A stretch of 64,000 bases of DNA from Caballeronia turbans. Its GTDB lineage: Bacteria > Pseudomonadota > Gammaproteobacteria > Burkholderiales > Burkholderiaceae. The position numbers and the translations under genes were made by a program. The stretch lies in assembly GCA_001544655.2 (NCBI GenBank), contig FCOD02000014.1, positions 62,001 through 126,000 of the forward strand, written 5' to 3'. Positions 25,381 through 29,023 of the stretch are shown here, one piece after another. Positions within the stretch are counted from its first letter, which is position 1. Each line of letters opens with the position of its first letter. Under the pieces are notes generated by a model. That model saw only the letters and a program-made list of their open reading frames with translations. It ran no database searches and was not told the DNA's origin.

Positions 25381-25673
25381 GGAAAACTTGCCCGCCTGGC
25401 GCTGTTTTTGTGAAAAGTCGGAATCTATGACTGATCCAAACCTGTTTCTCGTCGCCTTTCGGTCAACCGCTAATTATAAGGCCACGCCATGCAAAAACTA
25501 CACGACTAACAACTTGATACAGCTACCTATTTATGGTTGCACACGTTGCAAAAAAGTGTCATTACGCGGCAGCGTCCCTATTTATCTGACCGCAGATACT
25601 CATGGCGTGTTTCATAATGCGCGGATCGCGCACTTAAGCCGGCTCGCGGCTCCTTCAAAACCCGTAATCTCCG

Positions 25674-26573
25674 ATGACCGACGCCCTCACCTCCAGTCTC
25701 GACCTCGCCTCCGCCCCGCTCGTCTTCGGCGATCTTCAGGGCTGCTGCGACCCTTTCGAGCGTCTCCTGAAGAAAGCCGCGCCCGAGCCCGGCACGCCGC
25801 TCTGGTTCGCCGGCGATCTGATCAATCGTGGCCCCAAGTCGTTGCAAACCCTACGCGAAGTGATCGCCCTCGGCTCGCGCGCAACCGTCGTGCTCGGCAA
25901 TCACGATCTCAATTTGCTTTCAGTCGCGGCGGGTCTGCGCAAGCCGAAAAAAGGCGACACCCTCGATGAAATTCTCGAAGCGCCCGACGCCGCCGATCTC
26001 ATCGAGTGGGTGCGTCACAAGCCGGTCGCGCACTTCGAAAACAATGTGCTGATGGTCCACGCGGGCGTGCTGCCGCAATGGGACGCGACGATGACGATGG
26101 AGCTCGCGCACGAGCTCGAACAGGCGTTGCGTGCGCCGAACTGGAAGGAGACGCTCGCGTCGCTTTACGGCAACGAGCCGCATCGATGGGAAGATTCGCT
26201 CAAGGGCGCTGATCGGCTGCGCGTGATCTACAACGCGTTGTCGCGCATCCGCTTCTGCACGCCCGAAGGCGCAATGGAATTCGCCAACAACGGCGGCCCC
26301 GATGCCGCGCCGCCCGGCTATGTGCCGTGGTTTGACGTACAGAACCGACGCACGCAGGACGTAACAATTGTGTTCGGCCATTGGGCCGCGCTCGGCCTGA
26401 TGGTCCGCGAAAACGTGCTGTGTCTTGACTCGGGCTGCGTGTGGGGCAACAAGCTATCGGCGGTATTGCTGACCGCTGATCCGGCCCAACGCGTAATCAC
26501 GCAGGTGAGCTGCTCGGTCAATCACCCCGGCAAAGCCCGGAGCTTTTTGAAGCACTCGAAAGCTCGAGATTGA
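25674..26573 (+). CDS. apaH: Symmetrical bis(5'-nucleosyl)-tetraphosphatase
   Basis: A 299-residue calcineurin-like phosphoesterase that splits Ap4A into two ADP, controlling stress dinucleotides and RNA Np4 caps. Metal-site motifs are visible: VFGDLQGCCDPFERLL (GDxxG), WFAGDLINRGPKS (GDxxxRG), VVLGNHDLNLL (GNHD), MVHAGVLPQW and IVFGHWAALG. The ApaH-specific LDSGCVWGNKLSAVLL is also present. The stop codon is about 25 bases upstream of the IscB RNA scaffold, so the last residues (KHSKARD) lie near the insertion boundary. Otherwise the gene is complete. Confidence 0.93.
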   Translation: MTDALTSSLDLASAPLVFGDLQGCCDPFERLLKKAAPEPGTPLWFAGDLINRGPKSLQTLREVIALGSRATVVLGNHDLNLLSVAAGLRKPKKGDTLDEILEAPDAADLIEWVRHKPVAHFENNVLMVHAGVLPQWDATMTMELAHELEQALRAPNWKETLASLYGNEPHRWEDSLKGADRLRVIYNALSRIRFCTPEGAMEFANNGGPDAAPPGYVPWFDVQNRRTQDVTIVFGHWAALGLMVRENVLCLDSGCVWGNKLSAVLLTADPAQRVITQVSCSVNHPGKARSFLKHSKARD

Positions 26574-26583
26574 CCAGACCTAG

Positions 26584-26828
26584 CACTGTAAAGCGCTACG
26601 TTGTGCAGAGACAGCAAACCCACCGTCGAATGCTTCCTCAGTTCGACGCTCTGGAAGTCGCAGCAGCAGACAAGCCCCGGGTAGGTACGAAACGGGCTGC
26701 GACGGAAGCGAAGGCTTCACCTGCTGCACAACATGGTCGAGGGGAGCCATACCCGAAGGTATGCGTCACTAGGCCCGTAAGGCCAACCGCGCCGAACGGA
26801 CTTCGGCGGTGATCGAATAGGGGCTGCC
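26584..26828 (+). ncRNA. Omega RNA (HEARO RNA) guiding IscB, with candidate 5' guide
   Basis: The 255-base gap between apaH and iscB has no ORF but folds strongly. A 9-bp closing stem pairs 26600-26608 with 26724-26732 (GTTGTGCAG / CTGCACAAC). Inside are hairpins 26624-26630 with 26642-26648 (7 bp), 26673-26677 with 26694-26698 (5 bp), and 26705-26709 with 26714-26718 (5 bp, GAAG loop). After it come 26748-26753 with 26758-26763 (6 bp, CGAA loop) and 26790-26796 with 26802-26808 (7 bp). This size, position and multi-stem form match the RNA that lies directly 5' of iscB genes. In such RNAs the guide is at the 5' end, so about 16 bases at 26584-26599 are the candidate guide. No promoter was identified; read-through from apaH is possible. 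Confidence 0.82.
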
Positions 26829-28201
26829 TTGGCTGTTTTTGTACTCGATCGGAATGGCAGAGCGTTGATGCCGTGCAGTGAAAAGCGCGCGAGATTGCTG
26901 CTCGCGCGGGACCGCGCACGCGTGCATCGAGTTGTGACGTTCGTTATTCGGCTCACGCACCGTAACGCCAATTGCAGCAAATTTCAACCGTTGCGCCTCA
27001 AGTTCGACCCCGGTAGCAAGACCACCGGTCTAGCGCACGTGCGCGACATCGTAACGCCGAGCAAGGAGTCCGTCGAACTCATCCGCGGCGCAGCCGTACT
27101 TAATCTATTCGAACTGGCCCAACGCGGCCGGCAAATCAGTGAGGCGCTTACGGCGCGTCGGGCCATGCGTTGCCGGCGACGCGGTAAGCTGCGCTACCGT
27201 GCACCACGCTTCTCGAACCGCACGCGCTCTATGGGTTGGCTTGCCCCCTCGCTCCAGCACAGGGTTGATACTACAAAGGCCTGGGTTCATCGTATCATGC
27301 GCTGGGCACCGATCAGCGCATTCTCCAGCGAGCTCGTGCGCATCGACACGCACCTGCTCGAAAACCCTAAAGTCACTGGGGTGGGCTATCAGCGGGGAAC
27401 GCTGGCAGGCTACGAAATACGCGAATACCTTTTGGAGAACTGGGGCCGGCGTTGCTCATACTGCGACGCAAGTGGTGCGCCGCTGCAAGTAGATCACATC
27501 GTCGCTCGGGCCCGCGGTGGCACCGATCGAGTGTCGAACCTGACGCTGGCCTGCGAACCTTGCAACCGGGCAAAGGGGGCGCTGTCTGCTGAAGCATTTC
27601 TAGCGAAGCGGCCAACGCGATTGGCGAAGATCCTGTCCCAAGCGAAGCGTCCACTGAAAGATGCTGCAGCAGTGAACGCCACACGCGGGGCGCTGACCAA
27701 CGCACTGGACACGATCGGCCTACTCTTGGAACTTGCCTCAGGCGGACGTACCAAATTCAATCGGTTGGCAGTCGGTGTACCGAAAACACATGCGCTCGAC
27801 GCCGCTTGTGTCGGGGCAGTATCTGTCGTAACAAACTGGATTAGACCGATCCTGTCTATCAGCTGCACCGGTCGCGGCAGTTACCAGAGGACAGGGCTCG
27901 ACCGCTGTGGCTTCCCGCGCGGCGGATATCTGACAAGGGCAAAGCGTGTGCACGGATTCCAGACCGGCGACCTCGTGCGCGCCGATGTACCCTTTGGAAA
28001 GAAGGCTGGCACATACGTCGGCAGAGTGGCGATGCGTGCTACCGGTTACTTCAACATTCAAAGAGCTGGGAAAGTTGTACAGGGCGTCGCGCATCGGCAT
28101 TGCCGATTGGTTCAACGTGGCGACGGCTACGCATACTCCCGGATAAGCCCGGCCCACGCAGGCGCCCGCAGACGCGGTGAGGGCCCGTCGCCCTATCCCT
28201 T
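26584..28201 (+). mobile_element. Solitary IscB/HEARO-type element (OMEGA system), no transposase
   Basis: The segment holds the omega RNA and iscB and interrupts the apaH-acyltransferase neighbourhood. The right end is placed at 28201, just before GTGA (28202-28205); HEARO elements are known to insert 5' of ATGA or GTGA. The left end is placed near the start of the RNA scaffold (around 26584-26600) and is less certain. An imperfect terminal hairpin is present (AGGGC 28180-28184 with GCCCT 28190-28194, and GGATA 28141-28145 facing TATCC 28194-28198). No TnpA (Y1) gene exists in the window, so the element would need transposase in trans or is immobile. Confidence 0.75.
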
Positions 28202-28205
28202 GTGA
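26829..28205 (+). CDS. iscB: IscB RNA-guided DNA nuclease
   Basis: A 458-residue protein of normal IscB length, starting at TTG 26829 directly after the RNA. Domain order is PLMP (ALMPCSEKRA, residues 12-21), RuvC-I (KFDPGSKTTGLA, Asp60), and an Arg-rich bridge helix (~110-130, ending YRAPRFSNR). RuvC-II follows (SSELVRID, Glu168), then HNH (CSYC 209-212, VDHIV with His223, SNLTL Asn237, CEPC 242-245). RuvC-III is THALDAACVG, with His321 and Asp324. The C-terminal TAM-interacting region includes GFPRGGYLTRAKRVHGFQTGD and GRVAMRATGYFNI. All catalytic and zinc-binding residues expected for the family are present, so it should be active. The stop codon lies in flanking DNA, and the gene overlaps the convergent acyltransferase by 13 bases. 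Confidence 0.92.
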   Translation: MAVFVLDRNGRALMPCSEKRARLLLARDRARVHRVVTFVIRLTHRNANCSKFQPLRLKFDPGSKTTGLAHVRDIVTPSKESVELIRGAAVLNLFELAQRGRQISEALTARRAMRCRRRGKLRYRAPRFSNRTRSMGWLAPSLQHRVDTTKAWVHRIMRWAPISAFSSELVRIDTHLLENPKVTGVGYQRGTLAGYEIREYLLENWGRRCSYCDASGAPLQVDHIVARARGGTDRVSNLTLACEPCNRAKGALSAEAFLAKRPTRLAKILSQAKRPLKDAAAVNATRGALTNALDTIGLLLELASGGRTKFNRLAVGVPKTHALDAACVGAVSVVTNWIRPILSISCTGRGSYQRTGLDRCGFPRGGYLTRAKRVHGFQTGDLVRADVPFGKKAGTYVGRVAMRATGYFNIQRAGKVVQGVAHRHCRLVQRGDGYAYSRISPAHAGARRRGEGPSPYPL

Positions 28206-29023
28206 ACTTGAAGCCCTTGGTCTCCGGCGCAAGTGGTTCGAAGCTCAGCGGCGCGATCACTAAGGGCGACATCGGTCACAATAGCCGACGCGCCACACAT
28301 GCGATCCAGCGCAGCCTGCACCGCCGCCTGCGCCTCGCTCGCCAGCAGCCGCCGGTCCGCGCCCGGTGCGAGCGGATCGCATACGTACAGATGCGCGGTG
28401 ATCGCCCCCGCGCGCAATAGCGCGTTCAGCGAATCGTTGAGCGACATATCGCCGATATACGCGGGCGCAGTCGATTGCCGTCCTCGCGCGTCCTCGTACA
28501 TCAGGCAGATCGGCTGAACCGGACACGATGCCGACACCGCCGCCTGAAACATGTTCGCGTGAAACGGCAGCAGCGACTGGCCATCGGTCGTCGTGCCTTC
28601 CGGGAACACGCACATCATTTCGCCCGCGAGCAGCCGGTTGGCGAGCTCGTGCATGATGCGCTTCGCGTCGCTGCGCTTCTCGCGCTGCACGAACACCGTG
28701 CCCAGTTGATGCGCGAGCCAGCCGACCACCGGCCACTTGCGGATCTCCGCCTTCGAGACGAACGGCGTCGGACGCCACGCGTTGATCACATAGATGTCGA
28801 TCCACGAAACGTGATTGCCGACGACGAGCACGCCCGCATCGAGCCGCGCCTCGTCGTTATGCACGACGAGCTTCATCCCGGAAAGACGCAACATTTCCAG
28901 CGACCACACGCGATTCATCTCGGCGCGCTCGCTCGCGGACGCGCGTGGAAAGCGCCTCGCGACGATCCACATGCCGTACAGCAAGTGGACGGCGAGCCGC
29001 AGCTTGCGCAACGCGCAGCGCAT
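28193..29023 (-). CDS. Lysophospholipid acyltransferase (PlsC-like)
   Basis: A 276-residue membrane-associated acyltransferase that would acylate lysophosphatidic acid or a related lipid. It starts at ATG 29023, two bases after the pyrC-like stop. VVGNHVSWIDIYVINA near residue 67 is the family's HX4D motif in its NHVSWID form, and FPEGTTTDGQSLLPF (~140-154) is the substrate-binding FPEG block. An N-terminal hydrophobic helix (LAVHLLYGMWIVA) anchors it. The stop codon and last two residues (Lys-Gly) lie within the IscB element, so the native C-terminus was replaced on insertion. Lipid specificity is not determinable. Confidence 0.85.
   Translation of the reverse strand: MRCALRKLRLAVHLLYGMWIVARRFPRASASERAEMNRVWSLEMLRLSGMKLVVHNDEARLDAGVLVVGNHVSWIDIYVINAWRPTPFVSKAEIRKWPVVGWLAHQLGTVFVQREKRSDAKRIMHELANRLLAGEMMCVFPEGTTTDGQSLLPFHANMFQAAVSASCPVQPICLMYEDARGRQSTAPAYIGDMSLNDSLNALLRAGAITAHLYVCDPLAPGADRRLLASEAQAAVQAALDRMCGASAIVTDVALSDRAAELRTTCAGDQGLQVHKG

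Follow-up and report, generated by a model that had tools for sequence, protein, structure and literature searches.

An old HEARO/IscB insertion at the end of apaH, with the gene end as its predicted guide and exchange at the site among sister genomes

Classical homing endonuclease genes follow the Goddard-Burt cycle, and TnpB was reportedly described by Meers in 2023 as a retention factor of IS200/605 elements. PMC11870625 presents TnpB both as a retention factor and as a gene drive of these elements, and homing by transposon-encoded RNA-guided nucleases appears to have been argued from constructed assays and from plasmids with TnpB (PMC11870625). In a search of the open-licence literature, we found no report on homing of IscB from one species to another, and none on a preference for start codons.

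The locus described here lies within a 64-kb stretch of DNA (the window) and is best regarded as an old HEARO/IscB insertion that has the end of apaH as its guide and sister copies with exchange at the site. It shares with other HEARO/IscB (OMEGA) systems (RF02033, NF040563) an omega RNA 5′ of the gene, the RuvC and HNH residues, a guide taken from the left flank, and ATGA beside the target. In contrast to these systems, the right end of the window element is decayed, no canonical TnpA was found in its assembly, and in several species the apaH-site element occupies a single conserved position within coding sequence. Classical homing endonuclease genes likewise show patchy presence at such a position, a flank shared with the element, and broken copies, whereas the specificity here would be set by an RNA guide belonging to the host gene itself. 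As in TnpB of IS200/605 elements (PMC11870625), the guide records the insertion site and the empty allele is the target; the differences are that the nuclease is an IscB, that the evidence is comparative, between species and at a chromosomal locus, and that transposition has seemingly been lost.

Insertion site, omega RNA, and guide

The gene apaH (25674–26573, plus strand), coding for symmetrical bis(5′-nucleosyl)-tetraphosphatase, matches NCBIfam PRK00166 and TIGR00668 above their cut-offs. Only the part up to position 26516 is native, and the last 18 residues and the stop codon come from the element. Homology of uninterrupted relatives to the window ends at 26516, and when such sites are located through apaH alone, the sequence continues with ATGA in 12 of 13 relatives, the thirteenth (G011) being different. 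A typical uninterrupted site reads ...TGCTCG|ATGAAGAAG, and most go on as ATG AAG AAG followed by a stop codon, which is the end of apaH. A survey of 36 uninterrupted sites gave ATGA in 35 and ACGA in one, in a search pattern that itself required ATGAA with up to two mismatches. The element therefore sits directly before ATGA in the last codons of apaH, and its target motif (TAM) is ATGA. This agrees with a related nickase, DtIsrB, whose targets carry TTGA or ATGA (PMC9581776). Copies at other sites start at the base corresponding to 26517. At the level of sequence, the empty allele has the recognition site expected for a homing endonuclease gene, and the insertion destroys it.

Clean copies elsewhere end in a hairpin and ...CGCGCAA..CTG|ATGA. 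In the window, the remains of the right end were assigned to 28206–28236 (plus strand) from the right ends of relatives and from DNA folds, with an approximate boundary placed by eye. The former target motif, an ATGA that is now mutated, probably corresponds to 28237–28240 (plus strand), an approximate and uncertain position taken from a by-eye comparison with the right flanks of relatives; ATGA is still found behind the element in G007 and G044. The conserved right-end hairpin is not formed in the four readable apaH-site copies (window, G044, G007, and G049), the right end of G004 falling beyond its contig, which stops inside the element. Conserved hairpins at both ends are not found in the window element, in which the left-end hairpin is also weak. 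Fold energy was considered as a sign of right-end decay and rejected. One of two clean right ends forms an 8-bp hairpin of −10.6 kcal/mol, a value reached by 0 of 200 shuffles, and the other a 7-pair hairpin of −5.9 kcal/mol, reached by 53 of 200; the right ends of the window, G044, and G007 fold into other shapes at −4.7, −6.8, and −6.2 kcal/mol, and that of G049 hardly folds (−0.4). Energy does not separate clean from decayed ends, and it is the conserved hairpin that is lost.

The omega RNA scaffold lies at 26517–26752 (plus strand), where the covariance-model search proposed in the initial annotation gave a match to Rfam HEARO (RF02033) of 101.8 bits (gathering score 83, E 8e-20). This is the sole Rfam match above its gathering score in the window, and its first base is also the left edge of the element. 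The initial annotation was right in placing an omega RNA upstream of the nuclease gene; the start given there, 26584, misses the first 67 bases, as the 5′ end of the RNA lies within the apaH frame (to 26573). Its 9-bp closing stem is likewise present in an alignment of 24 related RNAs, as pairing of columns 106–114 with columns 262–270. For 36 of the 61 predicted pairs, both sides are changed in at least one of these 24 sequences.

Since the left edge of the element coincides exactly with the junction of the uninterrupted site, the omega RNA guide is predicted to be apaH coding sequence. It would comprise positions 26501–26516 (plus strand), directly 5′ of the HEARO match, and double as the coding sequence of apaH; a guide length of 16 nt is assumed in all guide comparisons. 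With this length, 9 of the 36 relatives with an uninterrupted site carry the window guide there without mismatch and followed by ATGA, and the guide common to G007, G044, and G049 matches 10 of the 36 sites exactly. A search of the window's own assembly for the guide followed by NTGA returned its own junction as the best match (one mismatch). The other seven matches have three mismatches each and a reversed control gave 12 matches, so that this search revealed no second good target in the assembly. Scans of 25400–28400 were uninformative: no sigma-70-like promoter was found, and two terminator-like sites, both on the minus strand, are fewer than in shuffled sequences.

IscB protein and loss of transposition

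The iscB gene (26829–28205, plus strand) starts with TTG at 26829 and encodes 458 amino acids. Its product belongs to the guided IscB family by NCBIfam NF040563 (396.1 bits, cut-off 175) and is also matched by Pfam RRXRR and HNH, which bears out the intact 458-residue IscB of the initial annotation. The RuvC residues Asp-60, Glu-168, and Asp-324 and the HNH residue His-223 are where that annotation had put them and are invariant in 11 of 11 aligned proteins. Its PLMP motif was a misreading, as residues 12–15 are ALMP; the proline at position 12 is invariant in 21 other proteins compared, and the family-model match of the N-terminal region begins at residue 3. Solved relatives by sequence include TbaIscB, HfmIscB, and OgeuIscB. 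The 7.35-Mb draft assembly contains one IscB and one HEARO.

Between the window iscB and the four other apaH-site copies, dN/dS is 0.12–0.20, with dS above 1.3 and thus near saturation in three of the comparisons, indicating that iscB has long been under selection. Such low values need no host function, because copies at other sites show 0.08–0.15 among themselves. Signs of relaxed constraint on the window IscB come from seven changes at residues invariant in 21 other proteins (P12A, P37T, D44H, H98Q, F172I, E181K, and R356G); each of the 21 has 0–4 such changes, with one exception that has 11. A separate comparison, of 11 proteins, likewise gives the window seven private changes at otherwise invariant columns, some of them at different residues; L013, L014, and L016, which are more distant, have 7, 10, and 18. 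Private nonsynonymous and synonymous changes in codons 1–340 number 27/9 in the window, 12/9 in G049, 16/12 in G011, and 20/18 in G287, and over a longer stretch 38/27 in the window and 29/16 in G011. As counts of private changes are biased toward conserved sites, they serve as a hint only. The window copy may be at the beginning of decay. Its activity is uncertain, because seven otherwise invariant residues are changed while the catalytic residues are kept, and RNA-guided activity is possible.

TnpA is absent from the window, in line with the initial annotation, and the sole Y1 match in the whole assembly is weak (33.9 bits) and lies on another contig, in a 235-amino acid open reading frame whose product presumably resembles REP-associated transposases. 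The four other apaH-occupied genomes have one weak Y1 match each, and the Pfam Y1 search found no canonical TnpA in any of the five assemblies. Of 25 genomes with the IscB family of the window, 12 had a strong match (E below 1e-20) in the same search. With a decayed right end and no canonical TnpA found, transposition of the window element has probably ceased. Matches to the protein occur in 78 plasmid and 34 phage records; the closest are only 60–80% identical (eight plasmid records in this band), so that no vector of the apaH-site clade could be identified among them.

In G004, two copies that are 91.7% identical over 1345 bp occur at apaH and before pyrB. These copies (L018/L044 and L028) are ∼5 kb apart in the gene order of the window and are sisters in the tree (98/95). 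The pair suggests a local jump.

Distribution and shared history of flank and element

We surveyed the locus in relatives, as the initial annotation had advised, using 58 same-genus genomes including that of the window. The apaH junction is occupied in 5 (G000, which is the window's genome, G004, G007, G044, and G049) and uninterrupted in 36. One further genome (G021) among the 42 with a match to the site pattern has it off the apaH contig, and together with the 16 genomes without a match, 17 fall in neither class. At the apaH site, G007 and G004 have a frameshifted iscB, and the gene is open in G000, G044, and G049. Counting matches of any kind, IscB is present in 18 of the 58 genomes, several of these being HNH fragments only. 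Empty, intact, and frameshifted alleles are best explained as stages of a homing cycle within the genus, as read from these sequences.

For the flank tests, 16 empty and 5 occupied genomes were taken from the 58, and 20 of these 21 were used for the right flank and the 210-bp scan, because the G004 contig ends inside the element. Over the last 200 bp of apaH, G044, G007, and G049 are 94.0–96.5% identical, compared with 82–86% upstream, an excess reached by none of 200 pairs with at least one empty genome. The last 210 bp place the three genomes in one clade (100/99), which is rejected by upstream apaH (p-AU 0.00175) and by plsC plus pyrC (3e-84). The three have eight private states in common between −202 and −25 and none further upstream (846 columns). 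The next best of 1330 triples has one private state in the last 210 bp of apaH; across rfbB, apaH, plsC, and pyrC, the highest count for another triple in a 210-bp stretch is three.

The element tree joins G007 with G044 (100/100), a grouping rejected by rfbB (p-AU 0.0007), upstream apaH (0.013), and plsC plus pyrC (0.004). Between these two genomes, dS is 0.20 for iscB and 0.57, 0.49, 0.52, and 0.71 for apaH, plsC, pyrC, and rfbB. The five apaH-site copies and the second G004 copy form one element clade (99/98), and a clade of the five without that copy is rejected (p-AU 0.012). The neighboring genes fail to group G007, G044, and G049 and are thus at odds with one old insertion passed on by vertical descent alone.

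The grouping of flank and element against the neighboring genes indicates that the element or its left part was exchanged together with a short adjacent piece of apaH at the same target, which fits the pattern expected of homing. In G049, recent common history extends from about −240 to +310 and so takes in only the flank and the omega RNA; its IscB body is ∼80% identical to those of G007 and G044, which means that less than the full element was exchanged. Unlike in the element tree, G044 is closer to G049 than it is to G007 within the last 210 bp, where a forced grouping of G044 with G007 meets mild rejection (p-AU 0.04). No co-transfer was seen on the right flank among 20 genomes; grouping the three over its first 220 bp costs 17 log units and is not rejected (p 0.18). 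The window's own flank does not join the three and has no private state in common with G004. Signs of flank co-conversion are strong on the left side in G007, G044, and G049 and missing on the right side; in G049 they do not take in the full element, and the window itself shows none. Elsewhere, pairs of genomes have up to six private states within 210 bp (e.g. G038 with G044), showing that exchange without an element also happens.

Homing, its rivals, and insertion preferences of the family

We consider RNA-guided homing into empty apaH alleles the best explanation of the locus, with confidence somewhat above even. A HEARO/IscB element (left edge 26517, right edge ∼28236) would have inserted immediately 5′ of ATGA in the last codons of apaH. 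We infer that the apaH transcript supplies the omega RNA from its 3′ portion, with apaH sequence as the guide. With such a guide, IscB could recognize the uninterrupted allele, where the guide match is followed by ATGA, and would spare its own occupied copy, where GTCA follows. An uninterrupted allele entering the cell, or arising by loss, would be cut and then repaired from the occupied copy, provided that the copy still works, and the element would in this way keep itself and spread at one site. We hold more tentatively, at somewhat below even confidence, that this IscB is now purely an RNA-guided homing gene, its guide dual-coded as the conserved 3′ end of apaH, its transposition lost, and its persistence in the genus due to recurrent homing, decay, and loss at a single chromosomal site. 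The case would show one way in which an RNA-guided nuclease outlives its transposon. Congeneric species in which one chromosomal site is empty, carries an intact copy, or carries a broken one, with matching guides and TAMs, would make natural IscB homing directly testable.

The main rival, which we judge unlikely, is a stranded transposon remnant that is inherited passively, passes between species by homologous recombination without cutting, and is now decaying. Frameshifts in two of five copies, loss of the right-end hairpin in all four readable ones, and the seven altered invariant residues of the window IscB would suit such a remnant, as would the exchange of only flank and omega RNA in G049 and the element-free exchanges between pairs nearby. 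However, the tract common to the three sister genomes ends at the insertion point and is not approached by any other triple in rfbB, apaH, plsC, or pyrC, and the dN/dS values show that iscB was under purifying selection. Two copies in G004, strong Y1 matches in almost half of the genomes with this IscB family (12 of 25), and clean right ends in most relatives at other sites could instead indicate an ordinary, still mobile HEARO/IscB transposon served by a TnpA from elsewhere; with the right-end hairpin of the window not formed, a single copy in its assembly, and only a weak Y1 match there, this is improbable.

Homing also fits the data better than the view of the initial annotation, in which an IscB in a core chromosomal slot may have been kept for a host function; regulation or defense would be examples of such domestication. 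An intact frame with its catalytic residues, the missing canonical TnpA and right end, and the low dN/dS would agree with domestication. The supposed core slot is, however, an inserted mobile element that displaces the last apaH codons, is present in 5 of 58 genomes and missing from the 36 uninterrupted ones, and has a broken iscB in two of the five. Copies at other sites have equally low dN/dS, the window IscB shows the relaxation described above, and its guide has no second good target in its own assembly. We therefore regard a host function as very improbable.

Elsewhere, insertions of the IscB family of the window tend to lie directly before start codons. At 19 of 20 insertion sites, a frame of 80 codons or more begins with the ATGA, compared with 140 of 389 ATGA in the flanks as background, and at 12 of 20 sites the ATGA also holds the first in-frame ATG (background 45 of 389). 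A Shine-Dalgarno-like sequence lies just upstream at 11 of the 20 sites (background 10%). These counts cover 20 of 22 sites (L025, L026, L027, L113–L118, L120–L123, L006–L010, and L042/L045), L019 and L005 being left out as no right end was found; 6 of the 20 come from three Marinobacter genomes. Ribosome-binding sites would thus fall within the natural guides at such insertions. The apaH site does not follow this preference.

Insertions of the family are found at the end of apaH (five genomes), before pyrC (G019 and G314), and before pyrB (G101 and the second G004 copy). In the gene order of the window, these points correspond to 26517, 30303 (pyrC start), and 31339 (pyrB start), all within 5 kb. 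The insertions come from three genera within one family, fall on several branches of the element tree, and may mark the apaH–pyrC–pyrB region as a hot spot. In G370, contig C38 carries four near full-length IscB genes within ∼124 kb.
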